A stretch of 45,087 bases of DNA from positions 1-45,087 of the forward strand of contig CAKZNC010000042.1 of NCBI GenBank assembly GCA_937129385.1, read 5' to 3'. The notes under the pieces are model-generated. The model had not been told where the DNA came from, made no database searches, and saw nothing but the letters and a program-made list of their open reading frames with translations. Every line of letters begins with the position of its first letter. Position 1 is the first letter of the stretch. Origin of the DNA: an uncultured Bacteroidota bacterium (GTDB taxonomy: Bacteria > Bacteroidota > Bacteroidia > Bacteroidales > GCA-2748055). Positions 31,120-45,087 of this stretch are shown in pieces. The translations under genes were made by a program, and so were the position numbers.

Positions 31120-31986
31120 ATGGCAATCAACGAAAAAGATATCGGGGAAAGGGATATCCGGCTGTTCCAGGAGACCATCAGTGAATATTCCGATTATGAT
31201 TTCAGTGACTACTCGGCCAACTCCCTGAGGAGAAGGCTGAACAGGATACTGGACAGCTATGGTTCGGATTTTGATCGCCTGATTGAAACGATCCGGACCG
31301 ACGAAGAGGCGCTTGAGGAGATCGTTAAAAAGATCACCGTCAGCACCACCGAATTGTTCCGGGATCCGACGATCTGGCAGCACATCATCCAAAAGGTGTT
31401 TCCCCGGTTCAAATTGCATTCGTCGATCAACATCTGGCATTCGGGTTGTTCCACGGGACAGGAGGTCTATTCCATGATGATCGCGCTGGACCAGTTCGGA
31501 CTGCTGGAAAGGGCGAACATCTATGCCAGCGATATCAATTCCGATGTGATGAAGATTGCAAAGAAGGGTGACTACAGACTGCGTTTCAACAGGGAGTACA
31601 TCAGCAACTTCAACGATGTGTTTTCACCCGGTATGTCTGAGGCGACCGGGCAGCAGTTCAAAACCCATGAAAAATACCTGAAGATCAATGAATCGCGTGA
31701 CCTGATCCAGATGAAGGAGTTTTTACGGTCCAAACCTGTGTATAAGAAAATCGACCTGGTAAAGGATGACAATCTTTTTTTTCTGAATTTTGACATCATC
31801 ATGTGCCGGAACGTGATCATCTATTTCAATTATGAGCTTCAGAACAAGGTACTGCGCCTGTTTCACCGAAGCATGCGGGAAAGTGGATGCCTGGTCCTTG
31901 GTCTTCATGAATCGATCATCGGTCCGGGTACAAAATATTTCCAGAAACAGAACAATTACTATGTCAGAATGAAAAAGGATGCCTGA
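31120..31986 (+). CDS. cheR: CheR-type protein-glutamate methyltransferase
   Basis: 288 residues, full length. Transfers methyl from S-adenosylmethionine to glutamate side chains, classically in chemoreceptors. The N-terminal helical domain (about 10-75) ends with TVSTTELFRDP (73-83). The cofactor motif is WHSGCSTGQEVYS (106-118), and the conserved ASDIN and CRNVIIYF segments follow. It opens a tight plus-strand series: the next gene starts at once and CheB follows. No chemoreceptor, CheA or CheW is encoded in the window, so the substrate is probably one of the coiled-coil sensors of the same operon (inference). It diverges from the PurQ-like gene, with 146 bases between the start codons. Confidence 0.92.
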   Translation: MAINEKDIGERDIRLFQETISEYSDYDFSDYSANSLRRRLNRILDSYGSDFDRLIETIRTDEEALEEIVKKITVSTTELFRDPTIWQHIIQKVFPRFKLHSSINIWHSGCSTGQEVYSMMIALDQFGLLERANIYASDINSDVMKIAKKGDYRLRFNREYISNFNDVFSPGMSEATGQQFKTHEKYLKINESRDLIQMKEFLRSKPVYKKIDLVKDDNLFFLNFDIIMCRNVIIYFNYELQNKVLRLFHRSMRESGCLVLGLHESIIGPGTKYFQKQNNYYVRMKKDA

Positions 31987-31987
31987 G

Positions 31988-34324
31988 ATGAGTTTGGCCG
32001 ACCGCATATCTGTAAAGGCAAGGTTTTTCTACCTGATCGTGATCATTGTACTTTTCACATTGATCTCGGGGCTGACACTCCTGCATACGCTCAACGCTGT
32101 TGAAGGATTGCGGGAGCTGGAGAATGGATTCGAAAGCAATTTCGACAGGGTCCACCGCATCGATCACCAGCTGGAGGAGCTTTATGTGTCACTGGCCGAC
32201 AGCACCAGGGGGAGCAGTGCTGAGATAGCTGCACTGGATGAAAGTCTCACAACCTTCAGGAGTGAGCTGCACAGGCTGACGCAGAACGAGTGGATGCGTC
32301 AATCGTCTGATATCCAGTCGGCTACCGCTAAGACTCTCAAATACATCAATGTGCTTGAAGGGGTAGCCAAAGACCAGTCATCCGGCAAATTTCCTCCCGA
32401 AGAATCGTTCGATGTGGTTCACACCCGTTACATCGACCCGGTGATCAGGTTGCGCACAGAGATCCGGGAACAAATGTTCGACACAACATTCCGTCTTCAG
32501 CGGAGGTACGCATTCAACCTCTTCATCGTACTTTTCCTCAGCCTGCTCTCGATCACCTTGTTCTTCTCTGTAAACGAGATCAGCAATTACCGGAATATAA
32601 GCAGACTGAGGCGTTTCTCTGATGATCTTGACAGGGGAAACCGGAAGAAGAAGATCCACTTGTCGGGTGCCGCTGAATTCACTGAGATCTCGGCGAAGCT
32701 GAACAGTTTCCTGGAAAAGCAAAAACAGAAAGCCCGGTTCCTGAAGACCATTGCTGAAGGTGGAGAGACCGGTTCCATGAGGACCGGGGAAGAGGACATC
32801 CTGGGCAACGAGATCAGGGTCCTGGCCGATCACCTGCAAACGATCCGGCATGAAGAGACGTTAAGACAAAATGAGGACCAGAAGCAGCACTGGATGTCGG
32901 ATGGTATCGCAGAATTTGCCGAGATCCTGCGGTCGGAACGTGAAAATGCAAAGGAACTCTCTTTCCTGGTCATACAAAAACTGGTCACCTACCTGGGTGT
33001 GGAGATGGGTACGATCTTCCTGACCTCCGACACTGTGGGGAACCGGGATCACCTGGAGACCATTGCAGCATATGCATACGATCGCCGTAAATATATCGAC
33101 CGAACCTTTGCATTTGGAGAGGGTTTGCCGGGAACATGTGCGGTTGAACAGGAGAAGATCTACATCGATGATATTCCTGAGGATTACAGTGATGTGATTT
33201 CCGGGGTCGGGCAGACACGACCGCGCTATGTGCTGCTGGTGCCGTTAAAGATCGAAAACGAGATCCTGGGGATCCTGGAGCTGGCATCCTTCCGGAAGAT
33301 CGAACCCTTTGAACTGGACTTTGTGGACCAGCTTGCAGACAGCATTGCCTCCACCCTGAATGCTGTGAAGACCAATGAACGTACCGCTTCCCTTCTCCGG
33401 CAATCACAGGAGCAGGCCGAAAAACTGCTTCGGCAGGAGGAGGAGATGAAGCTGAACCTGGAGAAGCTCGAAAAAGCGCAGGTGGAATCACAGAAGAAGG
33501 AGTCGGAGATCACCGGCATACTGAATGCCATGAACGAATCCTCCCTTGTGGCAGAATATAACCTGAATGGCCGGTTTACCCATGTCAATGAAAAGTTCCT
33601 CGAGCTGCTTGAATCACCGGCAGAGATGATCCTGGGAAAACACCATACCGAATTTGCCATCGTTGACCGATATTCGGAAGGGTATAAAAAATTCTGGAAA
33701 GAGCTGAAGGAGGGAAAGAGCATTTCCAGGGAGGAGCTGTTCCGCCTCTTCTCAGGAAAGGAGATCTGGTTACAGCAGACCTACACGCCGATCCGGAACC
33801 AGGAGGGGGAGATCTTCAAAATACTGAACATTGCCGTGGATATTTCGCGGGCAAAAAAGCAACAGGAGCACCTGGAGCAGCAAGCTGCTGAAATTAACAG
33901 GCAGAAACAGGAGATGGAGAGCCTGGACGAAGCCGTGAACAGTTCGATCATCAAGGCGGAGCTTGACCAGGAAGGAATCATCCTGGATATAAATGTTAAT
34001 TTCGAGGCTACTACAGGGTTGAACAGGAAGGAGATCCTGGGAAGAAACAACCGGCTGTTCCTGAAGGATGCGGAGAAGGAGCAATTCGACAGGATCTGGC
34101 AGGAGATGCTCAGGGGAAAGACATGGGAGGGGGCCACACGGCGGACAAAACCCACGGGAGAAGAGGTATGGCTCATGTCGACCTATTCTCCGGTGAAGAA
34201 CGAAGAGGGTGTGATCTACAAGATCTACATGCTTGCGCAGGATATTACAGAGAAGAAATTGAAGTACCAGCTGCTTGAAGAGGCCAACAGGGAGATCGAA
34301 CGCCTCAGGAGCGATTCAAATTAG
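31988..34324 (+). CDS. Membrane sensor with GAF and two PAS domains, no output domain
   Basis: 778 residues from ATG 31988; ATG 31979, inside cheR, is also in frame. Numbering below uses the longer form. Two membrane helices (17-37 and 180-199) flank a helical periplasmic domain of about 140 residues. A HAMP-like segment (about 200-250) leads to a GAF domain (about 320-465; FGEGLPGTCAVEQ, RPRYVLLVPLKIENEILGIL). A Glu/Gln-rich coiled coil (466-512; RQSQEQAEKLLRQEEEMKLN) precedes PAS 1 (about 512-635). A second coiled coil and PAS 2 (about 655-770) end the protein. There is no kinase, cyclase, MCP signalling or helix-turn-helix domain, so it must signal through a partner. The coiled coils between CheR and CheB are plausible methylation targets. 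Confidence 0.88.
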   Translation: MSLADRISVKARFFYLIVIIVLFTLISGLTLLHTLNAVEGLRELENGFESNFDRVHRIDHQLEELYVSLADSTRGSSAEIAALDESLTTFRSELHRLTQNEWMRQSSDIQSATAKTLKYINVLEGVAKDQSSGKFPPEESFDVVHTRYIDPVIRLRTEIREQMFDTTFRLQRRYAFNLFIVLFLSLLSITLFFSVNEISNYRNISRLRRFSDDLDRGNRKKKIHLSGAAEFTEISAKLNSFLEKQKQKARFLKTIAEGGETGSMRTGEEDILGNEIRVLADHLQTIRHEETLRQNEDQKQHWMSDGIAEFAEILRSERENAKELSFLVIQKLVTYLGVEMGTIFLTSDTVGNRDHLETIAAYAYDRRKYIDRTFAFGEGLPGTCAVEQEKIYIDDIPEDYSDVISGVGQTRPRYVLLVPLKIENEILGILELASFRKIEPFELDFVDQLADSIASTLNAVKTNERTASLLRQSQEQAEKLLRQEEEMKLNLEKLEKAQVESQKKESEITGILNAMNESSLVAEYNLNGRFTHVNEKFLELLESPAEMILGKHHTEFAIVDRYSEGYKKFWKELKEGKSISREELFRLFSGKEIWLQQTYTPIRNQEGEIFKILNIAVDISRAKKQQEHLEQQAAEINRQKQEMESLDEAVNSSIIKAELDQEGIILDINVNFEATTGLNRKEILGRNNRLFLKDAEKEQFDRIWQEMLRGKTWEGATRRTKPTGEEVWLMSTYSPVKNEEGVIYKIYMLAQDITEKKLKYQLLEEANREIERLRSDSN

Positions 34325-34343
34325 TAATTGGAGAAAATTATAT

Positions 34344-34913
34344 ATGATGAATGGCCCCGTTGTCATAGGAGGATCGGCCGGCAGTTTCAGGATCATCTCG
34401 AAAATGGTTTCGATCCTGAAGCCGGGATTTTTATTCCCGCTGATCATCTGTGTCCATCGCAATCGGGCTGCCTACCAGGGATTTATCCCGGCACTCTCCT
34501 CCCAGTCCGCCGTAGCGATACAGGAACCGGTTGATGGCGAGGAGATCAAGGCAGGAATTGTATATATCGCCCCGGCCAATCGTCACCTGGAATTTGCCAC
34601 TGAAAATACATTTACGCTGAATGATAAACCTCAGCAGAACTATTCACGGCCCTCCATTGATGTTACATTTAATTCAGCTGCCACGGTCTTTGGCGAAGAC
34701 TTGACCGGCATCCTGCTGACAGGTGCCAACAATGATGGTGCAGAAGGGCTGAAGAATATCCACGATTCCGGCGGGATGACAATCGTCCAGGATCCTGCTG
34801 AAGCGGAGGTTTCGGTGATGCCGCAATCAGCCATGGACCTGTTTCAGCCTGCCCATGTCCTGGAAGCTGATAAAATCATTAATTTTATTCAAAATTTGGC
34901 CGATCCCCGATGA
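34344..34913 (+). CDS. CheB-type methylesterase without receiver domain
   Basis: 189 residues, only the catalytic domain of CheB; the phospho-receiver domain of chemotaxis CheB is absent, so it is not controlled by CheA in the usual way. The serine-hydrolase triad is visible: Ser11 in GGSAGS, His38 in CVHRN, Asp131 in TGANNDGAEGL. Other family marks are IYIAPANRHLEF-like VYIAPANRH and the QDPAEAEVSVMP segment. It should remove methyl esters or deamidate Gln on the protein methylated by CheR. An upstream in-frame start at 34275 would overlap the sensor gene; ATG 34344 gives the correct domain start. Its stop overlaps the next ATG (ATGA). Confidence 0.9.
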   Translation: MMNGPVVIGGSAGSFRIISKMVSILKPGFLFPLIICVHRNRAAYQGFIPALSSQSAVAIQEPVDGEEIKAGIVYIAPANRHLEFATENTFTLNDKPQQNYSRPSIDVTFNSAATVFGEDLTGILLTGANNDGAEGLKNIHDSGGMTIVQDPAEAEVSVMPQSAMDLFQPAHVLEADKIINFIQNLADPR

Positions 34914-35680
34914 AGATCCGTAAACAGCAATACATCACAACCTGGCTGGCGTATTTTACGCTGATCGTCGCCGCAACAGCATTGTTGATCCTGGTCTGGC
35001 TTCCGGGTAATGCAGGCGGTTTCTCCTTCTTTATTTCCATGATCACCTGGGTAATTCTTGCCGCTGCCGCAACGGTTCTGTTCCTGCCCGCCTCACGGCG
35101 CTCACTTGCCCGGCGCATGAGCAGTCAGGGATCCCATAAGACGACAATTGTAAAAAAGAAAAGGAGTGTCCAGGGAGACGAAGAACAACTGGATATCCAG
35201 ACAGTGTCGGGGAAGATCGTCCGGAGGACCGATCTGTCTGAACCTGTTGAAAAATGGGGTGTCGGACTGCTCGACCTGCTGGTATCCGAGATCGAGATCA
35301 TGTCGGGTGTCATTTACCTGCAGGGAAAGGGAGGTGTATTTGAATCCACGGCCACCTATGCCCTTCCCCATACCAGTGGACCCTACTCCTTCAAAGAGGG
35401 CGAAGGGCTCACGGGACAGGCCGTGAAAAACCGGCAGGTGACCGTTTACAGGAATATCTCAGATTCGACAAAAAGTGTTTTTTCCGGACTTGGTTCGGGG
35501 ACGCCTTCCTACCTGTGTATCGCACCCCTGGTATCCGGTGACCGGGTAGTAGCGGTGATCGAGGTGGCAGGGTTCAGGTGGTCTGACAGCAACCTGGAGC
35601 AACTGTTCCAGCTGATCTGCAGGGAGCTATCCGGGAAATTTGATGAAACCGGATCCTTCAAAACGAAGCGCACAAAATGA
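34910..35680 (+). CDS. Membrane protein with cytoplasmic GAF domain
   Basis: 256 residues: two membrane helices (about 12-30 and 39-60), a basic linker (RRSLARRMSS, then KKKRSV) and a GAF domain (about 115-245) with FKEGEGLTGQAVKNRQVTV and YLCIAPLVSGDRVVAVIEVAG. The GAF domain resembles those of the proteins encoded on either side, so the three may detect related ligands. No output domain is present. Start and stop overlap the neighbouring genes by 4 bases each (ATGA at 34910-34913 and 35677-35680), so translation is coupled and stoichiometric assembly is likely. Role inferred: an accessory subunit of the sensor complex. Confidence 0.8.
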   Translation: MKIRKQQYITTWLAYFTLIVAATALLILVWLPGNAGGFSFFISMITWVILAAAATVLFLPASRRSLARRMSSQGSHKTTIVKKKRSVQGDEEQLDIQTVSGKIVRRTDLSEPVEKWGVGLLDLLVSEIEIMSGVIYLQGKGGVFESTATYALPHTSGPYSFKEGEGLTGQAVKNRQVTVYRNISDSTKSVFSGLGSGTPSYLCIAPLVSGDRVVAVIEVAGFRWSDSNLEQLFQLICRELSGKFDETGSFKTKRTK

Positions 35681-38289
35681 GACAGTCTAAACTGCAATAC
35701 CGATCGTCAATACACACCAGGAACATCTGGCTGTATGCCACTGCGGGGTTGCTGATCGTCCTGGCCGGATTTCTCGTTTCAGGTTACAATGAAGAGATTG
35801 GCTTCTCACTCTCCCGGGCATTGCAGTTTCACCGCGATAATCCTGTGCTCTTCCTGTTCGAGGGGTTGCCGCTCTATATCCTCGTGATCCTTTCCGCCGC
35901 CAGGCGCAACCTTCGAAAATTCACCGGGGAATACGATAAGGAGATGGACCGGATGAGCAACCTTATTGAAAGAAATGCGCAATTTGCACGTGAGCTGTCG
36001 GAAGGTGCCGACCCGGATGAATTCCCGGGAATGCTGAATGCCGAACCTGGTATATCTCTGCGGCTGATCCACCTCAACATCAGGTCAAACAGGAGGAAGG
36101 AGCGGGAGCTGACCTGGATCACGGAGGGAAAGGAGATGATTTCCAGGGTGCTTCGATTGTACAACGACATAGACGAACTGTCTTACAAGGTCCTGACCCA
36201 GCTGAGTATATACATCAATGCAGTACAGGGTGCGATGTACCTGTATGACGAGGAGAAAAAGGAGCTGCGGAATGTTGCGGTCATGGCCTATAACAGGCGA
36301 AAATATATCGACCAGGTATTTGGGATCGGCGAAGGACTGGTGGGACAATGTGCGTACGAGATGGATTACATCTACCGCACCGAGATCCCGGAGGAGTATG
36401 TGACCATCACTTCGGGGATACTGGGCGACCAAAAACCTGGCAGCATCCTGCTGGTTCCGCTCATCACCAATGAACAGCTGCAGGGAGTTGTGGAATTTGC
36501 ATTCCTGGATACACGCATCCCGAAGCTCTCCATCCAGTTCATGCTCGAACTCGGGGAGATCATCGCACGCACGCTGTTCAACCTGCGTGTGAATATGCGC
36601 ACTCATCAACTGCTGGAGGAGTCACGGAACATGACCGCCGAGCTGCAGGAGAATGAACAGGTGTTGAAGGAGAATGCGGAGGAGATGAAGACGACGCAGG
36701 AGGAGCTGCAACAGGCAAATATCCAACTTGAACAGAAGATCAGGGAGGAGAAGCTGGCCCAGGACAGGCTGCATTGGCTCCTGGAAAATACATCAGAGGT
36801 CATCTCCATTTATGACCGGAGTTTCCGACTCACCTATATCAGTCCGTCTGTGGAACATATCCTTGGGTACTCCCGGGAGGAAATGCTCAACGGAAAAGAT
36901 TTCGAGCGCATTGATCAGAAGAGCAGCACGGCCATCAGGAAGGCCTTTGAGCAGCTGCTGCAGGAACCGGAAGAGACGGTACGGCTGGAATATGAATTTC
37001 TCCGCAAAGACGGCAAACGGGTCTCCCTCATGTCCAGCATCAGGAACCTGCTGGATGATCCTTCGATAAAGGGGTATGTTTTCAATACACATGACATCAC
37101 CGAAACAAAACTGATTGAAAAGGAACAGCGGCTTACCTCCAGGATGCAGTCCCTCTCGGAGAATTCGCTTGACCTGATCTTGCGGATCAATACCGACGGC
37201 ATCATCCATTATGCCAACCCCGTGGTGGAAGACTACACCAGGATTCCCCTTTCTGATATGCTGAACCGTTCCATCCATGACATCATCCTCAACAAAGCCC
37301 TGGATGCGATCATCGAAAATGCGATCCACAAAATCTCCCGCAAGCCGGCGAAGATGAATCTCGAAGAATCCATCCCTGTCGAAATGGGTGGAAAAAAAGG
37401 TGAGCGAACGGTGAATTTCAACATCATCCCTGAATTCCAGAACAACGAGCTGGAGACCATCCTCTTTGTCGGACATGATGTCACGGAAGCCAGGAGGATA
37501 GAGCAGGAGATCAAGGTCACGAACCGAAAGGTACAGGACAGCATCAACTATGCGGAACGGATCCAGTCATCGATCCTGCCCTCCACAGAAGGCATTCGAA
37601 AAGCCTTCCCCGAAAGTTTCATCTTCTACAAGCCAAAGGATGTCATCTCCGGGGATTTCCCCTGGTTTTATGAATCGGAAGATGCATGGTTCATTGCAGC
37701 GATCGACTGTACAGGTCATGGTGTACCGGGAGCGCTGCTCTCCTTTATCGGGTTTTTCCTGCTGAACAATATCACCTCCATGAACGCCGGGAAATCGCCC
37801 GGGGAACTCCTGAATGCCCTGAACGGCGAAGTGAGGCGCACCCTCAAGCAGGACCAGACGAATCCTGATACCAGGGACGGGATGGACCTGGCATTCTGTA
37901 AGATCTTTAAATCGGGGGGCCGGATGGAATACAGCGGGGCGCACCGTCCGTTGTACCGACTGCGCGAAGGGGAAGTTAGTGTTTACAAAGGAGACCGGAA
38001 GGCAATCGGCGGACTTGTAAATCCGAGGAAGCCGGAACAGGAATTTACCACCCACCGCGTGGACCGGCTGCCGGGTGACAAGATTTTCTTTTTCTCTGAC
38101 GGACTGACCGACCAGATGGGTGGACCGGAAGGGCTGAAATATTCACCCGCCAGGGTCAGGGAAAAACTGTTGAACAATCCCGGATTTACGATCAAACAGT
38201 TTAACGAGACCTTCCGGGCTGATTTCGACCAATGGAAAGGGGAAGAGGTGCAGATCGACGATGTATTGATGATCGGGATCGGCTTCTGA
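35677..38289 (+). CDS. GAF/PAS/PAS sensor with SpoIIE-type PP2C phosphatase
   Basis: 870 residues. Membrane helices at about 18-35 and 58-74, coiled coil, GAF (about 160-305; FGIGEGLVGQCAYEM), a Glu/Gln-rich coiled coil (310-365; ELQENEQVLKENAEEMKTTQ), PAS 1 (about 366-480) and PAS 2 (about 490-605). The SpoIIE/RsbU-type serine/threonine phosphatase domain covers about 625-870. Metal-binding Asp660 (DVISGDFPWF) and Asp677 (AIDCTGHGVPGAL), RDGMDLAFC, FFSDGLTDQ and the final QIDDVLMIGIGF are all in place, so it should be active. By analogy with SiaA of Pseudomonas aeruginosa and RsbU, it probably dephosphorylates the SiaC-like protein encoded two genes on. Its coiled coil is a second possible CheR/CheB target. 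Confidence 0.92.
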   Translation: MRQSKLQYRSSIHTRNIWLYATAGLLIVLAGFLVSGYNEEIGFSLSRALQFHRDNPVLFLFEGLPLYILVILSAARRNLRKFTGEYDKEMDRMSNLIERNAQFARELSEGADPDEFPGMLNAEPGISLRLIHLNIRSNRRKERELTWITEGKEMISRVLRLYNDIDELSYKVLTQLSIYINAVQGAMYLYDEEKKELRNVAVMAYNRRKYIDQVFGIGEGLVGQCAYEMDYIYRTEIPEEYVTITSGILGDQKPGSILLVPLITNEQLQGVVEFAFLDTRIPKLSIQFMLELGEIIARTLFNLRVNMRTHQLLEESRNMTAELQENEQVLKENAEEMKTTQEELQQANIQLEQKIREEKLAQDRLHWLLENTSEVISIYDRSFRLTYISPSVEHILGYSREEMLNGKDFERIDQKSSTAIRKAFEQLLQEPEETVRLEYEFLRKDGKRVSLMSSIRNLLDDPSIKGYVFNTHDITETKLIEKEQRLTSRMQSLSENSLDLILRINTDGIIHYANPVVEDYTRIPLSDMLNRSIHDIILNKALDAIIENAIHKISRKPAKMNLEESIPVEMGGKKGERTVNFNIIPEFQNNELETILFVGHDVTEARRIEQEIKVTNRKVQDSINYAERIQSSILPSTEGIRKAFPESFIFYKPKDVISGDFPWFYESEDAWFIAAIDCTGHGVPGALLSFIGFFLLNNITSMNAGKSPGELLNALNGEVRRTLKQDQTNPDTRDGMDLAFCKIFKSGGRMEYSGAHRPLYRLREGEVSVYKGDRKAIGGLVNPRKPEQEFTTHRVDRLPGDKIFFFSDGLTDQMGGPEGLKYSPARVREKLLNNPGFTIKQFNETFRADFDQWKGEEVQIDDVLMIGIGF

Positions 38290-38393
38290 TGTAACATCAC
38301 GGGGTTTTTTCCGTATAATTGGTACATTATATTTCATTTATATTTATATTTATCTCCTTACGTATTCGCAGGATAACAGTCGTGTGGCGGACC

Positions 38394-38999
38394 ATGACAA
38401 ATGATCAAAAAAATTTGAAAAATCCACGCCCAATGGATGACATTCAGGGATACTTCAGTCTCATCGAAGAGCACTACAGTAAACTCCTTGCCAAGGAAAT
38501 CATTGTTGCCTACGATGGTGATGTAACGCACCAGGTCATGAAAGCTATCACCTCCATGGTGGAAGAGAAGCTGGAAAACGAAAAGGAAAAGGAACCGGTG
38601 CGCAGAAAGCTTTACCACATCATGGTGGAGTGCCTGCAGAATGTGAACCGCCATGCCGAAGCTTTTTACGGGGACGGGAAGGATCATTACCCCGGGCGCG
38701 GTGCACTGCTGGTCAGCCAGTCTGAAAAATACTACATCGTTTTTACCGCCAATGTGATCCGTACCAGCCATGTAAATGACCTGGAAACATTTTTAAAGAA
38801 GATCAATCCCCTTTCCGGAGATAAACTGAATGACCTGTATAAAGACAAACTTATGGAAGGATCTCTATCTTCCAAAGGGGGAGCCGGACTCGGGTTTATC
38901 GATATCAGGAGGAAGACCTCCAATGAAATGGAATTCAGCTTTGTGAAGAAGGACGAAGAGATCTCCTTTTTCCTGTTCAGTGTAAAAATTACAAGATAA
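38394..38999 (+). CDS. SiaB-like serine/threonine kinase (GHKL fold)
   Basis: 201 residues from ATG 38394; an upstream in-frame start at 38319 would add an unlikely hydrophobic leader. The SiaB-type (DUF6272) kinase has a reduced GHKL fold: N-box with Glu79 and Asn83 in YHIMVECLQNVNRHAEA and a glycine lid SSKGGAGLGFIDI (159-171). In P. aeruginosa SiaB phosphorylates SiaC on Thr68, opposing the phosphatase SiaA. Here it lies between a PP2C phosphatase and a SiaC homologue, 5 bases before the latter, which strongly supports the same role. The 104-base gap in front of it is the largest within the series and could hold a secondary promoter. Confidence 0.88.
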   Translation: MTNDQKNLKNPRPMDDIQGYFSLIEEHYSKLLAKEIIVAYDGDVTHQVMKAITSMVEEKLENEKEKEPVRRKLYHIMVECLQNVNRHAEAFYGDGKDHYPGRGALLVSQSEKYYIVFTANVIRTSHVNDLETFLKKINPLSGDKLNDLYKDKLMEGSLSSKGGAGLGFIDIRRKTSNEMEFSFVKKDEEISFFLFSVKITR

Positions 39000-39004
39000 G
39001 AAAT

Positions 39005-39385
39005 ATGGCAGCGCTAAGAATTGAACCCAAAGATGATACGCCCCTGGTTGTATTCAACAGGGAGGAAGGACATTTTGAAATATCCGGAAAATCGATGCCG
39101 GAGGATGTGGTGGACTATTATACCCCGGTGCTGGAGTGGTTGAAACACTATAAATCTGATCCGCTTGACAAAACGGTTTTTGACTTCAAGCTGGTCTACT
39201 TCAATACGGCATCCTCCAAGCTAATCCTCGACATCCTGATGATCCTTGAAGAGATCAGTAAAAAGGGCAAGGAGGTACTCGTCAGGTGGCAATCCCTGGA
39301 AACGGATGAGGACATGCAGGAGGCGGGCGAAGAATATGCCGAAATGGTCGATCTCAAATTCGATTACCTCTGGTTCAAAAAATAA
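39005..39385 (+). CDS. SiaC-like regulatory phosphoprotein (DUF1987)
   Basis: 126 residues, the usual length. DUF1987/SiaC proteins have an anti-anti-sigma-like fold and switch partners by phosphorylation. The family site is kept: Thr68 in VYFNTASSKLILDIL, the same residue number as the SiaB target in P. aeruginosa SiaC. Other marks are PLVVFNREEGHFEISGKS at the start and KEVLVRWQSLETDEDM. In Pseudomonas unphosphorylated SiaC binds the diguanylate cyclase SiaD; no cyclase is encoded in this window. The directly following gene, 14 bases on, is a large ABC protein, which I infer as candidate partner. Confidence 0.92.
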   Translation: MAALRIEPKDDTPLVVFNREEGHFEISGKSMPEDVVDYYTPVLEWLKHYKSDPLDKTVFDFKLVYFNTASSKLILDILMILEEISKKGKEVLVRWQSLETDEDMQEAGEEYAEMVDLKFDYLWFKK

Positions 39386-39399
39386 CGTAATCTTCCGGG

Positions 39400-42300
39400 A
39401 TGAGTGAGGAGATCTTACGTGCGCTGATGGAGCTGTTTGCCATCATCATCAAACAGGATGGTGGATTGTCCGTGAAGGAGAGATCCTATGTGAAGAATTT
39501 TCTTGTGCAACAGATCGGCGTTGAATCCGCCGAAGAATATTTTGAGCTGTTCCTGGAGACCGCCAGGTCGGACCAGGAAGCCAAAAAAGAGAAGAAAAAG
39601 AGACTCACCTCCGTCCTCGATTCGGTCAAGATCCTGAAGATCGGCAAGAAGATTTCAAAAACCCTCAACCAGCAACAGAAGGTGGTCGTGCTGATCAGGT
39701 CCATGGAGCTGATCAATACCGAGTACAAACTCACCGGACAACGCGTGGAGATCATCGAGACCCTGGCCGATGTATTCAGGATAAACAGGGGAGAATACAC
39801 CGACATCTACAATTTCGTCACTGCCGCCGATCGGAGTCCTGCCGGGATGGAAAACCTGCTGTTGATCCACCCGCCCGACAAAGTCCCGGAGGCTGAAAAC
39901 CGGATCATCGCCGAGGGGACCGACCGGGAGATGTACATCCTGCGGGTGCCGTCGGTGGAGCTCTATTTCCTGCAATACGACGGCAAACTGGAGGTCCAGC
40001 TCAACGGCCACCCGGTCATCCCCGGCACCATTTACATCCTGGCCAACGGGAGCAGCATTCGCTTCCCGAGCGGCCTCCCGATCTACTACAGCGATATCAC
40101 AGCCAATTTCCTGTCGCGTCACAGCGATGAGAAGATCGCCTTCCAGGCGGAACGGATCTCCTATTCTTTCCCCGGGAATGTCAAAGGGTTGAGAGAGATC
40201 TCCTTCAGCGCCGAGCAGGGCAACATGATCGGGATCATGGGCGCAAGCGGATCGGGGAAAACCACTCTGCTGAACGTGCTTTCCGGGATGTATTCGCCCA
40301 CCTCCGGTGTGGTGAAGGTGAATGGTGCAGATATCAATGCCGACGACAACCGACTCCACGGGGTGATGGGGTATGTTCCGCAGGATGACCTGCTGGTGGA
40401 GGAGCTTACGGTGTTTGAGAACCTTTGGTTCAATGCGAAATTCTGTTTCCGGGACCTGGATGATAAGGAGATCCGGTCCAGGGTGGAGCGGGTGCTGGAC
40501 AACCTGGGACTCCTGGAGAAAAAGGATCTGAAGGTGGGTTCGGTGATGAACAAGACCATCTCGGGCGGACAGCGCAAGCGGCTCAACATCGCCCTGGAGC
40601 TGATCAGGGAACCGGCCATCCTGTTCCTGGACGAGCCCACATCGGGACTGTCGTCGCGTGATTCTGAAAATGTGATGGACCTGTTGCGGGAGCTGACCAC
40701 GCGCGGGAAACTTATTTTTAACGTGATCCACCAGCCCTCTTCTGAACTATATAAGATGTTCGACCAGGTGATTATTCTGGATGAAGGCGGGTACATGGTC
40801 TGGTACGGCAATCCCGTGGAGGCGGTGGTCCATTTCAGGAAGATTGACAACCAGGTGAACTATGGCGTCGGGGAGTGCCCGGTGTGTGGAAATGTGAATC
40901 CCGAACAGCTATTCAATATATTGGAGGCGAGGCAGGTGGATGAGTTTGGAAACTACACCGCGCAACGAAAGATCAGTCCGGCCAGGTGGCACAACTACTT
41001 TGAGAACAGCCGGCATCGCGGTCAGCCTGATGCGGCAGGTGAAAAACCACCCGTCCAGCTGAAACTCCCGCGATGGGGCGGTCAGCTTGTGAACTACCTC
41101 CGGCGTGACCTGAGGTCGAAGATCGGCAACCGGCAGTACATGAGCCTGGTCCTTGGCGTGGCCCCGCTGCTGGCGATCATCCTTTCGTACATCATCAGGT
41201 ACATTGCAGATCCTACGAGTAACAGGTACATCTTCAGGGAGAATGAGAACATTCCCATCTATATCTTTATGGCGATCATCGTGGCCCTGTTCCTGGGGCT
41301 GATCATGAGCGCCGAGGAGATCTTCAGGGACCGGAAGATTTTAAAGCGTGAGAAGTTCTTACACCTGAGCCGCTCGGCCTACCTGTCGGCCAAGGTGGTC
41401 AACATCTTTTTCATGTCTGCTTTGCAGACCATCATCTTCGTCTTGATCGCGAACAATGTGCTGGGGATCCGGCAGATGACATTTTCCTATTTTTTTGCAT
41501 TGTTTTCGGTGGCGGCATGTGCCAATATGATCGGTCTGATCATCTCATCGGCCTTCGACTCAGCCGTGACCATATACATTCTGATCCCGCTGGTGATGAT
41601 CCCCATGATGGTGCTGAGCGGCGCCATGTTCAGCTTTGAAAAACTGAACAGGAACATCAGCAGTGTCGGCAGGGTACCGTTCATCGCTGAGGTGATGCCT
41701 ACACGCTGGGCGTACGAGGCACTGATGGTACGGCAGTTTAAGGACAATGCCTTTGAACAGACCTTTTTCGATGTGGAGATGAAGATCAGTCAGAACAATT
41801 TCAAATCGGCCTGGTACATCCCCGAACTGCAGCAGCGCCTGGATGAGGTGCGCGATGAATTCCGGGAAGAGGGTCGGATTGTTGAGAGTGAGGATGCTTT
41901 GCGGGTGTTGGAGAACGAGGTCATGCGTGAGAAAGACAGTCTTGATGGATGGAATTTCGATCGTGGCATGTTTGACCCGGGGAATTATTCCAGCGATTTT
42001 GGAGAACAGATCGATGGCTTTCTTGATGCGCTGAATGAATTCTACCTCGGGAAATTTGTCATTGCAAACAACCGGAAACAGCGGATACTGCAGGAGGTGA
42101 TGAGGGACCAGAAAGACTACTATTACCTGTTGCTGGATAAATACCACAATGAAAGTGTGAGTGACCAGGTGCGAAAGATCTATGAGAAGAACAAGATCGT
42201 GGAATCGGATGGCCGGTTGTACCAGCAGACTGATCCTATCTTCCTGTTACCTGAAGCCACCCGTGCACCATTTTATGCGCCACGGAAGCTGATTTTTGGC

Positions 42301-42432
42301 AGGTATGTGGATACCTACTTGTTCAACATGGGGGTGATCTGGCTGCTTACTGGGGGATTGTATATGATCCTCTATTATGACCTGCTGAAGAAGATTGTGC
42401 ATGCACGGTTGTTCAGGAGAAGACGCGCCTGA
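39400..42432 (+). CDS. TerB-like/FHA-like/ABCG-type transporter fusion
   Basis: 1,010 residues. The N-terminal 150 residues are helical and TerB-like (ALMELFAIIIKQDGGLSVKE, then IINTEYKLTG-type repeat NTEYKLTGQRVEIIETL). Residues about 165-235 form a beta-rich, FHA-like segment (LEVQLNGHPVIPGTIYIL, NGSSIRF). The ATPase domain (about 246-480) has Walker A GASGSGKTT (281-289), signature SGGQRKR (388-394) and Walker B ILFLDEP (407-413), with ABCG-like order. A CPVCG motif (about 495) suggests a small metal site. Six or so membrane helices follow (ABC2 type, about 575-760), then a long soluble loop (about 770-960) and a final helix. It may export a lipid or polymer, or act as a signalling ATPase. 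Being last in the Sia-type operon, it is the likely output. Confidence 0.87.
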   Translation: MSEEILRALMELFAIIIKQDGGLSVKERSYVKNFLVQQIGVESAEEYFELFLETARSDQEAKKEKKKRLTSVLDSVKILKIGKKISKTLNQQQKVVVLIRSMELINTEYKLTGQRVEIIETLADVFRINRGEYTDIYNFVTAADRSPAGMENLLLIHPPDKVPEAENRIIAEGTDREMYILRVPSVELYFLQYDGKLEVQLNGHPVIPGTIYILANGSSIRFPSGLPIYYSDITANFLSRHSDEKIAFQAERISYSFPGNVKGLREISFSAEQGNMIGIMGASGSGKTTLLNVLSGMYSPTSGVVKVNGADINADDNRLHGVMGYVPQDDLLVEELTVFENLWFNAKFCFRDLDDKEIRSRVERVLDNLGLLEKKDLKVGSVMNKTISGGQRKRLNIALELIREPAILFLDEPTSGLSSRDSENVMDLLRELTTRGKLIFNVIHQPSSELYKMFDQVIILDEGGYMVWYGNPVEAVVHFRKIDNQVNYGVGECPVCGNVNPEQLFNILEARQVDEFGNYTAQRKISPARWHNYFENSRHRGQPDAAGEKPPVQLKLPRWGGQLVNYLRRDLRSKIGNRQYMSLVLGVAPLLAIILSYIIRYIADPTSNRYIFRENENIPIYIFMAIIVALFLGLIMSAEEIFRDRKILKREKFLHLSRSAYLSAKVVNIFFMSALQTIIFVLIANNVLGIRQMTFSYFFALFSVAACANMIGLIISSAFDSAVTIYILIPLVMIPMMVLSGAMFSFEKLNRNISSVGRVPFIAEVMPTRWAYEALMVRQFKDNAFEQTFFDVEMKISQNNFKSAWYIPELQQRLDEVRDEFREEGRIVESEDALRVLENEVMREKDSLDGWNFDRGMFDPGNYSSDFGEQIDGFLDALNEFYLGKFVIANNRKQRILQEVMRDQKDYYYLLLDKYHNESVSDQVRKIYEKNKIVESDGRLYQQTDPIFLLPEATRAPFYAPRKLIFGRYVDTYLFNMGVIWLLTGGLYMILYYDLLKKIVHARLFRRRRA

Positions 42433-42488: not shown

Positions 42489-43382
42489 ATGAAAAAAAGT
42501 TCAATTGCATTTCTTTTTGTGGTCCTGCTGCTAAGCTCCTGTGGGAATCGGCAAAAAGAGCAACTGTCGGTTGACATCCCCGACCTGGAAGCCGACCATC
42601 TGGTCATTTCCGAGGAGGCCATGGACGAGGTCATTGAGAACATCGCATCCCCCATCGAGGTAGCTTCGCTGCTAAGCGAACTGGACATCCCCTTTTCGAT
42701 ATCCTACCTGTCGGAACCCGAAAAGATGTCGGCCTACTCCACCGATTATGAGATGGCTTACAACCTGGGAGCATTGAGTTCCGACCTGGGATACCTGAAC
42801 ATGTACAACAAGACCGGCACGGCGATCAACTACCTGGGCACGATCAACAAGCTCACCGATGCTTTGAAGGTCGGGCAGTTCTTTGATTTTCCGAAGATGA
42901 AGCGGCTGGCCACCGGAAATAACACCCTTGATTCGTTGCTGTTTATGTCCATGAACAGTTTCAACAACATGGACGACCATTTGCGCCGGACCGATCGCAG
43001 TGACCTGAGTACGCTGATGGTTGCCGGGGTTTGGCTCGAGGGTTTGTACCTGGCCACCCAGGTATATGACAGATCTGCTGTAGCTGAGGTTCGCGAGGTG
43101 ATCGGACAGCAGAAGCATATATTGGCAGATCTTCTGATCATCATGAACAAGTATAAATCGGATGATTTTTTCAGGGAGCTGCTTGCTGATTACATGCAGA
43201 TCAAGGATCGTTTCGACGATGTGACGATCACTTATGAGATCGGGGAGCCGAAGACTGTGGAGGTTGACGGCATGCTGATGGTGATCCAGGATGAATCCAG
43301 CACCATTGAGATGTCGGACGAAACCCTTTCTGAGATCATTGCCATTGCCGAAGAGATACGCAACAAACACCTAAACATCTGA
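42489..43382 (+). CDS. Putative lipoprotein, unknown function
   Basis: 297 residues. Lipoprotein signal with lipobox LLSSC (Cys18). The mature protein is almost entirely helical and rich in Met, Asp and Leu (YEMAYNLGALSSDLGYLNMY, SLLFMSMNSFNNMDDHLRR, ILADLLIIMNKYKSDDFFRE). I recognise no motif or family. It has its own -7 box, and the next gene begins 4 bases after its stop, so these two form a unit. Position directly after the ABC transporter suggests, without proof, an envelope partner of that system. Confidence 0.78.
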   Translation: MKKSSIAFLFVVLLLSSCGNRQKEQLSVDIPDLEADHLVISEEAMDEVIENIASPIEVASLLSELDIPFSISYLSEPEKMSAYSTDYEMAYNLGALSSDLGYLNMYNKTGTAINYLGTINKLTDALKVGQFFDFPKMKRLATGNNTLDSLLFMSMNSFNNMDDHLRRTDRSDLSTLMVAGVWLEGLYLATQVYDRSAVAEVREVIGQQKHILADLLIIMNKYKSDDFFRELLADYMQIKDRFDDVTITYEIGEPKTVEVDGMLMVIQDESSTIEMSDETLSEIIAIAEEIRNKHLNI

Positions 43383-43386
43383 TCAC

Positions 43387-43818
43387 ATGAGAGCAATATA
43401 CAATCTACTGGCTGTTTTGCTGTTCCTGGGTGTCACCGCATTCCTTCCCCAGGATACGCCCGATGATGTGATGGAATGTGCCGAGAAGGCCGGACCGTCG
43501 GCCGTGTATCTCAAGGATTTCCAGGTCGATCTGGAGGCTGCAACCCCTGGGGAGCGGCCGCCCATGTTCAGGCAGGCTGTGGTTTTGCGCGGCAACAACA
43601 TTTACCGGTTTAACCTCTGCAACAAGCAGGGCGAGGCGGTGATCAGGATCTACGACAGTAGCCGCATGCTGCTCACCTCCTATGATGCCGCCAGCGGCAA
43701 AGAGTACAATCCCATCCAGTTCATGTGCAAGAAGACGGGACCGTATAATATTGTGATCACGTTTAAGGACGGGACAGCCGGGGAGGCGATCGGGATCATG
43801 AGCCACGTTAAAAAGTGA
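43387..43818 (+). CDS. Small exported protein, unknown function
   Basis: 143 residues with a signal peptide (residues 1-20, cleavage near TAFLPQ). The mature part is predicted beta-rich (AVVLRGNNIYRFNLCNKQGE, AVIRIYDSSRMLLTSYDA, GPYNIVITFKDGTAGEAIGI) and has three Cys (in DVMECAEKAG, NLCNKQ and FMCKKTG), two of which could pair in the periplasm. The compact sandwich resembles PPC-like or calcium-binding accessory domains, but no family can be named. It follows the lipoprotein gene after 4 bases and is surely co-transcribed with it. Confidence 0.75.
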   Translation: MRAIYNLLAVLLFLGVTAFLPQDTPDDVMECAEKAGPSAVYLKDFQVDLEAATPGERPPMFRQAVVLRGNNIYRFNLCNKQGEAVIRIYDSSRMLLTSYDAASGKEYNPIQFMCKKTGPYNIVITFKDGTAGEAIGIMSHVKK

Positions 43819-44355: not shown

Positions 44356-45087
44356 ATGAAAATATTTAGATTATTTGCCATTGCCTGCCTTATTGGCATA
44401 TCTGCCTCGAGTTCTGCTCAAGTAGCTATAAATGCCAGTGGAAATCCTCCAGACGGATCAGCGATGCTTGATATCACCAGCACGGACAGAGGGATACTTA
44501 TTCCCAGGATGACAGAAGCACAAAGAAATGCTATCTCGTCCCCTGCTACAGGTTTACTGATCTTCCAGACGGACAACACTCCCGGACATTATTATTATGA
44601 TGGATCAGGCTGGGTGGGCATTGGTACCAGTTCAGGTGTATCTTCTGTAAGTGCTACCGCACCGGTAGAAAGCACAAATGGTTCCACACCGGTTATTTCT
44701 ATGGCAGCAGCAACTTCCGGAAACGACGGGTATCTGTCGTCAACTGACTGGTCTACCTTTAACAACAAGGCAGATGATTCGGGGGTTACAGATGTGACCG
44801 GGACCGGGCCAATTTCATCTACTGGTGGCACAACTCCTGAAATTTCGATTGCTCAGGCCAATGCATCGACAGACGGTTATTTATCTTCTACTGATTGGAA
44901 TACGTTTAACAACAAAGCCGATGGTTCGGGGGTAACAGAGGTAACAGGAACTGGTGTAATATCAGTTGCCAACGGAACCACAACTCCTGAAGTTTCAATT
45001 TCACAAGCTACAACTTCTACTGATGGCTATCTAAGTTCAACCGATTGGAATACATTTAATGATAAGGAAGGTAGTCAGTGGACAACT
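44356..45087 (+). CDS. Secreted repeat protein, 5' part only (runs off the window)
   Basis: 244 codons, open at the right edge, so the length is unknown. Signal peptide 1-21 (cleavage near SSSAQ). Residues 22-90 form a head module (GSAMLDITSTDRGILIPRMT, then GLLIFQTDNTPGHYYYDGSGW) common at the start of Bacteroidota surface and tail-fibre-like proteins. From residue 95 a 49-residue unit repeats (95-143, 144-192, 193 onward), each with DGYLSSTDW and TFNNK. Such modules occur in collagen-like fibres, phage tail fibres and adhesins; a surface fibre or adhesin is inferred. The C-terminus, where a chaperone or T9SS domain might lie, is out of sight. The gene is more AT-rich than the operon before it. 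Confidence 0.82.
   Translation, partial: MKIFRLFAIACLIGISASSSAQVAINASGNPPDGSAMLDITSTDRGILIPRMTEAQRNAISSPATGLLIFQTDNTPGHYYYDGSGWVGIGTSSGVSSVSATAPVESTNGSTPVISMAAATSGNDGYLSSTDWSTFNNKADDSGVTDVTGTGPISSTGGTTPEISIAQANASTDGYLSSTDWNTFNNKADGSGVTEVTGTGVISVANGTTTPEVSISQATTSTDGYLSSTDWNTFNDKEGSQWTT
44638..45087 (+). repeat. 147-base tandem coding repeats
   Basis: Three in-frame units starting at 44638, 44785 and 44932, each 147 bases (49 codons); the third reaches the window edge. Units 2 and 3 are closer to each other than to unit 1. The strongest conserved core encodes DGYLSSTDW.TFN.K. Confidence 0.85.

Follow-up and report, generated by a model that had tools for sequence, protein, structure and literature searches.

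A gene row conserved in many Bacteroidota joins chemotaxis methylation enzymes to a phosphorylation switch and an ABC transporter

In the absence of chemoreceptors the methyltransferase CheR and the methylesterase CheB have no obvious substrate. One question then is what these enzymes act upon in a genome which retains both and encodes them next to a phosphorylation switch and a transporter. Such a locus is found in an uncultured Bacteroidota bacterium (assembly GCA_937129385.1), of which we analysed a window of 45,087 nucleotides, comprising positions 1 to 45,087 of contig CAKZNC010000042.1, to which all coordinates refer. From the window the preliminary description had noted the lack of a chemoreceptor, of CheA and CheW and of a cyclase, and the same holds for the whole assembly (4.28 Mb, 99.7% complete), in which PF00015 (MCP), PF01584 (the domain common to CheW and CheA) and PF00990 (GGDEF, as in SiaD-type cyclases) are all without a match. 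Chemoreceptors or GGDEF proteins encoded elsewhere in the genome, the case which that description had set against its own proposal, were thus not found.

The eight genes originally assigned to the row are all present and intact on the + strand, their identities are borne out by Pfam and NCBIfam profiles, and the intervening gaps of 1, 19, -4, -4, 104, 5 and 14 bases are reproduced from the starts 31988 (sensor), 34344 (CheB), 34910, 35677, 38394 (SiaB), 39005 and 39400. In order, they encode a CheR-type methyltransferase (CheR_N plus CheR, 31120..31986, PF01739 6e-33); a membrane GAF-PAS-PAS sensor without output domain (31979..34324, starting at 31979 or 31988; Pfam GAF_2 and two PAS), which is an optional member (12 of the 34 full rows show such a sensor in the sequence examined); a CheB methylesterase without receiver domain (34341..34913, starting at 34341 or 34344; PF01339 6e-46); a GAF protein (34910..35680, PF13185 6.6e-7) judged by eye to be membrane-anchored; a GAF-PAS-PAS phosphatase of the PP2C/SpoIIE type with a SiaA-like catalytic domain (35677..38289; PF07228 7e-18, NF038263 3e-45); a SiaB-family GHKL protein kinase (DUF6272, 38394..38999, PF19788 5e-35); the STAS-like phosphoprotein SiaC (39005..39385, PF09345 5e-38); and a TerB-ABCG half transporter (39400..42432; ABC_tran, PF00005, and ABC2_membrane, PF01061). 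Two further members had been overlooked, such that the row runs to 43818: Lp, a putative lipoprotein (42489..43382, +), and Nx, a small putative secreted protein (43387..43818, +), neither of which belongs to a Pfam family. Among 72 loci with at least 1.5 kb of downstream sequence, Lp lies directly 3' of the transporter gene in 52 and the order ABCG-Lp-Nx is kept in 49. Scans for promoters and terminators, with 17 against 13.3 expected and 14 against 12.0 expected, respectively, gave no information.

One conserved row in many Bacteroidota joins chemotaxis methylation enzymes, a phosphorylation switch and an ABC transporter. The gene order, which the preliminary description had allowed might prove unique to this genome, recurs across Bacteroidota: in a sample of 80 named loci assembled from the transporter, 58 of which had enough upstream sequence for row order to be scored, CheR-CheB-GAF-PP2C-SiaB-SiaC-ABCG is found in 33. 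The identity of the transporters is 45-54% across the 32 aligned members of 34 full rows. In the converse sample, taken from CheB, the class yielded 38 receiver-less genes; 12 of them adjoin SiaB/SiaC, and at 4 of these the transporter is present as well. In the window's own family, 8 of the 12 loci that are informative have no CheB. The conservation of the row suggests that a pathway unconnected with swimming is likewise tuned by adaptation of the chemotaxis type.

Both methylation enzymes are predicted from their sequences to be catalytically intact. CheR residues R39, T77, E78, R81, G113, E115, R230 and N231 are conserved in 37-38 of 38 row CheRs, as are S12 (36/37), H39 (37/37) and D132 (37/37) in the row CheBs (numbered from 34341), and these we take to be the active-site residues. 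The window CheB, a protein of 190 aa, consists of CheB_methylest alone, lacks the N-terminal receiver and differs from the row majority at 11 positions otherwise conserved in 34-36 of 37 proteins. In the phosphatase the match to PF07228 is above cut-off, the SiaA-like part is limited to residues 604-867 (NF038263, 154.8 bits, the full-length cut-off being 700), and D660, D677, D808 and D862 are kept in 50 of 50 row members.

A candidate methylation site lies within the phosphatase itself. The coiled coil between the GAF and the first PAS domain of the row phosphatases carries the receptor-methylation consensus E-E-x-x-A-S/T, in the window as E-E-M-K-T-T (residues 335-340, 36679..36696, +) with Thr where the consensus has Ala, and the majority sequence of the row phosphatases at this site is QNAEEMRATQEEL. 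The acceptor is likely the second Glu of the motif, residue 336. A relaxed DNA pattern of the motif has a single match in the 4.28-Mb genome, inside the row phosphatase, and the strict pattern has none. In the window's sensor the consensus is absent, although other row sensors carry it. When Q is accepted for E, and S or T besides A at the Ala position, the motif is present in the phosphatase of 23 of 37 CheB-bearing rows, and in either phosphatase or sensor of 32/37 rows with CheB versus 5/16 without. The latter contrast had a Fisher p of 9e-4 when it stood at 32/37 versus 4/12, before four family rows were added. We do not use this within-row link as proof, because it comprises only four independent CheB changes, a number with which the sign test is powerless, and it is not significant on the tree.

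On the scale of genomes, the strict pattern is associated with CheB among 158 members of the class (12/13 versus 36/145, Fisher 2e-6, related genomes being counted as independent). Five families are mixed for the motif, and four of them (f14, f17, f18 and f41) follow CheB whereas f37 goes against it; f18 also holds one CheB-bearing genome without the motif, and two genomes with a row devoid of CheB have one strict match apiece. The association could also stem from larger signalling repertoires as a common cause. Outside the row the motif follows a GAF domain by about 34 residues in nine of ten carriers scanned and a PAS domain in one, and no MCP domain was detected in these ten at E <= 1e-5. 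A strict match in G019 (L169) was set aside, as it lies in no long open frame and is probably due to chance.

The remaining components of the switch are well conserved. SiaB scores 145.7 bits with NF038262 (cut-off 85) and its residues E80, Q83, N84, G166 and G168, counted from 38391, which lies one codon upstream of the Met, are found in 56 of 56 members. SiaC scores 130 bits with PF09345 (cut-off 24.5) and was aligned to its nearest solved relatives, 7e6g and 6kko. Thr68 of the window SiaC (codon 39206..39208, +), the predicted phosphorylation site, aligns with Thr68 of Pseudomonas aeruginosa SiaC; T68 is kept in 57 and N67 in all of 58 row SiaCs.

A model of the transporter built from 80 sequences (pLDDT 85, pTM 0.74), which superseded a shallow one from 10 sequences (pTM 0.33), matches human ABCG2 with Z 32.3 and rmsd 3.4, the 534 residues aligned being distributed over residues 245-994 of the model, and thus predicts a nucleotide-binding and a transmembrane domain in one chain. 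The VIA-align rows cover residues 243-1001 and barely test the N-terminal part. There residues 1-141 (39400..39822, +) form a TerB-like domain, proposed to be cytoplasmic and regulatory, with seven helices in the model; the TerB match of the window copy is sub-threshold (E 0.01, 16.4 bits against a cut-off of 24.4), and membership comes via its relatives: of the 34 N-termini that were aligned, 33 match Pfam TerB at E <= 1, the best of them at 5e-12. It is followed by a small domain (residues 153-221) modelled as beta strands, whose LNG and G-S motifs raised the idea of an FHA-like reader of phospho-threonine. Against PDB profiles this domain gave only a chance-level match (MEK1 chain 5yyx, E 0.76), and Pfam FHA is not among the best 25 of 44 families matched by 34 transporter members, the other 19 being matched by few members each. 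A mostly helical insert of about 185 residues (786-971; 41755..42312, +) precedes the last transmembrane helix; its block means of pLDDT are 84-96 and we infer that it is probably periplasmic.

We tentatively propose, at somewhat less than an even chance, that the row is a partner-switching system whose phosphatase serves as a receptor with covalent adaptation and whose SiaC targets the TerB-ABCG transporter. A signal at the membrane would be detected by the GAF and PAS domains of the phosphatase, jointly with the membrane GAF protein and, where present, the sensor. CheR would methylate, and CheB demethylate, a Glu in the E-E-x-x-A-S/T coiled coil and so adjust the gain of the phosphatase in the manner of chemoreceptors, with neither CheA nor CheY, a step to which the motif and the genome correlation point. 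By homology to P. aeruginosa SiaA, SiaB and SiaC, the phosphatase would remove phosphate from SiaC Thr68 and SiaB would add it. Unphosphorylated SiaC may then bind and activate the transporter, in place of a diguanylate cyclase, probably by contacting the cytoplasmic TerB domain, and the transporter with Lp and Nx would change export or the cell envelope. Of the chain originally suggested, methylation-based adaptation has gained a candidate site in the phosphatase linker, and the evidence for control of the transporter is gene adjacency. In its wider form, which we hold with equal reserve and do not quite expect to prevail, glutamate methylation adapts the phosphatase and, via SiaB and SiaC, the output of the transporter, and the post-GAF E-E-x-x-A-S/T coiled coil marks a wide class of methyl-accepting receptors other than MCPs in Bacteroidota, of which the row is the phosphatase branch.

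SiaC lies directly 5' of the transporter gene in 48 of 71 loci, and the SiaB-SiaC pair stays beside it both in the rearranged loci L119 and L130 and, in convergent orientation, at the transporter paralogue of the genome under study on C100. These data argue against the reading that the Sia switch is real and its phosphatase adapted by CheR/CheB, but that the target of SiaC is some other protein, perhaps a coiled-coil one, encoded in the row or elsewhere, the transporter being no more than co-regulated or co-opted. We regard it as unlikely on balance, although it draws on several observations: no SiaC is seen in 12 of 56 transporter loci with at least 9 kb upstream; L210-L213 have the order CheR-CheB-PP2C-SiaB-SiaC-SiaB-SiaC with no such transporter within the stretch examined, two short proteins following the Sia genes in L211 being coiled-coil-like by eye; and SiaC of P. 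aeruginosa binds a coiled-coil stalk, according to excerpts of PMC7647112 and PMC8457831. A comparison of the transporter paralogues on C100 and C170 and of other SiaC loci for a common output yielded none that stood out.

CheR and CheB could have their substrates in trans, among other kinases or GAF/PAS sensors, their position in the row serving only to coordinate expression. The 18 named full-row genomes hold 1-21 strict matches apiece, mostly outside the row; G026 keeps CheR-SiaB-SiaC-ABCG-Lp-Nx without phosphatase or sensor, and in L082 CheR adjoins the transporter with no Sia genes. Moreover, another CheR gene of the genome under study lies next to a hybrid kinase, and the row's CheB is the sole PF01339 match in this genome. 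Yet its single relaxed motif falls in the row phosphatase, and we consider action solely in trans rather improbable. That CheR/CheB serve chemoreceptors and SiaC a diguanylate cyclase, both encoded elsewhere, has in its favour that of the 33 row-bearing genomes 21 have MCPs and two have a GGDEF domain; but 12 lack the former and 31 the latter, and the genome under study, with neither of these nor a CheW domain, contradicts it, so that we give it very little credence. Tight spacing can arise without functional linkage, but a chance neighbourhood of unrelated genes is refuted by the recurrence of this order in many lineages with transporters 45-54% identical, seen independently from CheB, and is hardly conceivable.

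With SiaABC(D) of P. aeruginosa, as described in the available portions of PMC7647112 and PMC8457831, the row shares the PP2C phosphatase, the SiaB kinase and SiaC Thr68; in contrast, both row and genome are without the SiaD cyclase, the transporter occupies its place, and CheR/CheB and GAF/PAS sensing are added. The cyclase is the only SiaC target described in the literature covered, and the row offers a testable second kind. In favour of the proposed scheme, DUF1987 proteins have been suggested to modulate adjacent proteins (PMC8457831, in part). In Shewanella oneidensis the che1 locus likewise holds CheR and CheB genes together with a partner switch, CrsR-CrsA, and its authors think Che1 probably involved in the control of that switch (excerpt of PMC9855816). 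According to the same excerpt, che1 encodes a complete Che system, MCPs, CheA, CheW, CheY and CheD included, and the target of its switch is the sigma factor RpoS and no transporter, whereas the row keeps only CheR/CheB and its switch is of the Sia type. We regard che1 as a partial precedent for Che enzymes joined to a partner switch. With the adaptation arm of chemosensory pathways the row has in common a CheR and a CheB whose catalytic residues are conserved; it departs from that arm in that its genome is without MCP, CheA and CheW domains, its CheB without a receiver, and in its proposed substrate, the phosphatase.

If CheR and CheB do adapt the phosphatase, covalent adaptation would be a general module, attachable to a signalling output different from the CheA kinase. 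With an acceptor residue predicted, this central claim becomes testable, and the row suggests a role for a conserved transporter and its two associated exported proteins. The literature covered, which took in few subscription journals, yielded no receptor-free CheR/CheB joined to a SpoIIE/Sia switch. Methyl-accepting coiled coils outside MCPs are an idea shared with the MAC profiles named in PMC6943060 (seen in part), and among the literature covered no partner-switch phosphatase was listed as a member.

Two further comparisons concern the arrangement of the genes. In CheR(-CheB)-coiled-coil-PAS fusions of three relatives (L214, L216 and L217) the relaxed form E-E-x-x-[AST]-[ST] precedes PAS in the coiled coil fused to CheR itself, enzyme and sensor being joined in cis in one polypeptide, whereas the row has separate genes for enzyme and target and a PP2C output. 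For Rv1747/PknF, excerpts of PMC3908365 and PMC5549992 describe a kinase gene in one operon with the gene of the ABC exporter which it modulates; there FHA domains and PknF are employed, and the row has the kinase SiaB, the STAS-like carrier SiaC and a TerB domain.

The row of closely packed genes that starts at position 31120 of the forward strand lies on contig C42 of a 4.28 Mb genome that is 99.7% complete, and encodes CheR, a GAF-PAS-PAS membrane sensor, a 190-residue CheB without a receiver, a membrane GAF protein, a GAF-PAS-PAS PP2C phosphatase, SiaB, SiaC and an ABCG-type transporter. All eight core genes are intact and on the same strand, as the preliminary description had read them, and the intergenic gaps it gave are reproduced. 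They are followed by Lp, a putative lipoprotein 56 bases after the transporter, and Nx, a small putative secreted protein 4 bases after Lp, both without a Pfam family; the start of a putative secreted protein also occupies 44356-45087, its frame continuing beyond the window end. The transporter begins with a TerB-like domain (Pfam TerB matches 33 of 34 aligned N-termini); a small beta domain separates this from an ABCG core that matches human ABCG2 with Z 32.3 over 534 residues. Its model carries about 185 mostly helical residues ahead of the last TM helix, a predicted insert that would be periplasmic; for the ABCG part, the comparison covered the fold.

This arrangement is real and widely conserved. 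Within the window's own family 27 of 28 genomes, that of the window counted, have a transporter relative, and in 15 of the 16 neighbourhoods examined around its closest relatives there (L048-L063) SiaB-SiaC lies immediately 5' of the transporter, the sixteenth (L058) being on a contig that starts inside that gene. The transporter-orthologue alignment supplied the best 80 named loci, in which genes were scored with window-family profiles; counted only where flanking sequence sufficed, and in a set picked by transporter similarity whose proportions are not prevalences in nature, SiaC is directly 5' of the transporter at 48 of 71 informative loci, PP2C-SiaB-SiaC-ABCG is found at 43 of 61, ABCG-Lp-Nx at 49 of 72, and the order CheR-CheB-GAF-PP2C-SiaB-SiaC-ABCG at 33 of 58. 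The gene order, for which a co-occurrence search had been proposed, thus recurs beyond this genome, and its carriers are Bacteroidales and Marinilabiliaceae MAGs together with named strains of Flexithrix, Nafulsella, Cesiribacter and Splendidivirga, four genera of the Cytophagales; among them are the cultured Flexithrix dorotheae DSM 6795 and Nafulsella turpanensis. Of the 34 full rows, 32 were aligned, and in these the transporter is 45-54% identical to the window copy.

CheB occurs in 48 of 158 class genomes, at 66 places, 39 of which have frames of 188-249 residues and are receiver-less by length; one of these is the window's own, and the neighbourhoods of the other 38 were examined. SiaB or SiaC stands beside CheR-CheB in 12 of the 38 (L190, L196, L199, L202, L204-L207, L210-L213), and the whole row including the transporter in four of those 12 (L190, L196, L206, L207); at L202 the stretch reaches the contig end and shows no transporter. 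In the absence of SiaB and SiaC, CheR-CheB is accompanied by the phosphatase alone at L194 and by a phosphatase fragment at the contig end at L200, and in 6 of the other 24 neighbourhoods CheB is followed by a GAF/PAS protein of more than 1000 residues, presumably a hybrid kinase. Viewed from CheB, the steadier unit is thus CheR-CheB-(GAF)-PP2C-SiaB-SiaC, the transporter being one of at least two contexts. At L211:2233-9692, and likewise at L210, L212 and L213 (four genomes of one family), the series reads CheR-CheB-PP2C-SiaB-SiaC-SiaB-SiaC, and at L211 the second SiaB-SiaC is followed by two short proteins that look like coiled coils by eye. Since no transporter was found within range of this series at the four loci, a different output is likely there.

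Thr68 of the window SiaC aligns with the phosphosite of Pseudomonas aeruginosa SiaC and is retained in 57 of 58 row SiaCs, while E80, N84 and the glycines of SiaB and the aspartates of the phosphatase are invariant across the aligned row members. The test of the residues taken as catalytic in CheR, CheB, PP2C and SiaB was one of their conservation. In P. aeruginosa Thr68 is phosphorylated by SiaB and dephosphorylated by SiaA (PMC7647112), and by homology it is near certain that the row, too, encodes a phosphorylation switch. The window's genome has eight SiaCs: in five of them the Thr68 place is taken by Ser or Ala, or the preceding Asn by Asp, and five, on contigs C12, C202 and C43, lie where no window-like SiaB or PP2C was found. 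Three SiaC-like genes lie within 2.3 kb on C43 (L016:6908-9152), all with Asp for Asn67 and with Ala, Ser or Thr at 68; the 20 kb of that locus hold nothing resembling the window's SiaB or PP2C, and these genes are possibly degenerate or differently used.

As regards the target of the switch, a second P. aeruginosa study describes the binding of unphosphorylated SiaC to the coiled-coil stalks of SiaD, and its authors suggest that modulation of adjacent proteins is common among DUF1987 proteins (PMC8457831). The protein adjoining SiaC is here the transporter, as it is for the convergent paralogue on contig C100 and in the rearranged loci L119 and L130, and control of the transporter by SiaC is plausible, if unproven. 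At the C100 locus (L012:9370-13520) the genome's second SiaB-SiaC pair converges on its second TerB-ABCG transporter, which shares about 44% identity with the window copy, and STAS and Hpt genes lie close by. Two loci, L117:17698-18795 and L122:8319-9515, encode SiaB proteins of double length that contain a pair of DUF6272 domains; the L117 copy, shortly downstream of the row, has another SiaC and a PP2C gene as neighbours.

The preliminary description had named as contrary outcomes an order unique to this genome, or chemoreceptors and a diguanylate cyclase encoded elsewhere as the partners of CheR/CheB and SiaC, and neither was observed: a genome-wide family search found no MCP, CheW or GGDEF domains, each family being detected in 7 or 8 of 14 control genomes. 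Among 33 row-bearing genomes MCPs are present in 21 and absent from 12, and GGDEF domains are present in 2 and absent from 31; a few of these absences may be assembly gaps, completeness not being given. The row is a new combination of known modules, and a literature search, mostly short of full texts, did not find it described. Its closest precedent is che1 of Shewanella, a locus that combines a full Che system with the CrsR-CrsA partner switch (PMC9855816); CheR and CheB share a locus with a partner switch in both, but the present row differs in its receptor-free CheR/CheB, its Sia-type switch and its transporter.

A candidate substrate for CheR and CheB lies within the row itself. In fifty aligned row phosphatases GAF is joined to the first PAS by a conserved heptad linker whose majority sequence is QNAEEMRATQEEL, and at the position of its motif, the receptor-methylation consensus E-E-x-x-A-S/T, the window phosphatase has EEMKTT (residues 335-340). 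In nine CheB-bearing rows whose phosphatase has no motif it is the row sensor that carries one, typically LEEMQATQEE. A motif in phosphatase or sensor is present in 32 of 37 rows with CheB and 5 of 16 without (one row with too short an upstream sequence omitted), a contrast that reflects just four independent CheB changes and does not reach significance on the tree. That the linker of the row phosphatase is methylated is likely, though unproven.

Of the 158 class genomes, 13 contain the strict DNA pattern, which encodes EE[hydrophobic]xATQE, and 2 its reversed control. With related genomes treated as independent in both Fisher tests, CheB is found in 12 of the 13 strict-pattern genomes against 36 of the 145 others (2e-6), and the strict pattern in 9 of 15 genomes with receiver-less CheB beside Sia/PP2C genes against 4 of 143 others (2e-8), where the 15 include the window's genome, L200 with its phosphatase fragment and L194, which lacks SiaB and SiaC, and where Sia adjacency was checked at the 38 CheB places described above. 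Counted also in 32 chosen genomes, the pattern gives 1-21 matches per genome in 18 named full-row genomes, 1-2 in three family genomes that have CheB and 0 in six that do not, as in the window's own; four named genomes with a CheB-less row give 0, 1, 0 and 1. The relaxed pattern (A/S/T then S/T) has a single match in the window's genome, inside the row phosphatase, which is thereby the only candidate substrate that the pattern reveals there.

In nine of ten motif proteins scanned, from 30 fetched loci, the motif lies about 34 residues past the GAF end, and in the tenth (L150) after a PAS domain; no MCP domain was found in the ten at E <= 1e-5, several frames being cut by the stretch. In three relatives (L214, L216 and L217) the coiled coil that holds the relaxed motif is part of the CheR polypeptide, and the enzyme may there act on its own coiled coil; these CheR-coiled-coil-PAS fusions have EELQSTNEEL-type repeats, fitting E-E-x-x-[AS]-[ST]. 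The motif position and the fusions together point to GAF-linked coiled coils as the best candidate substrates of CheR/CheB.

Several observations weigh against the proposed system. Of 12 informative loci in the family, 8 have no CheB (L048-L052, L057, L059, L060), and it is present in L053, L054, L056 and the window, a count that leaves out the cut L055, L058, L061 and L062 and the more distant L063. At 11 positions where 34-36 of 37 row CheBs agree, the window CheB itself has a residue other than the majority one, with S12, H39 and D132 kept, so that methylation may be declining in this family. Likewise, CheR is kept without the phosphatase at L048 and stands beside the transporter without Sia genes at L082, and among the 56 transporter loci whose upstream sequence extends to 9 kb or more, 12 show no SiaC; the parts of the row are therefore separable. 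The window CheB is the only one found in its genome, and the second CheR (L017:5095-10468, contig C152) lies by a Cache-GAF hybrid histidine kinase and a receiver-histidine kinase.
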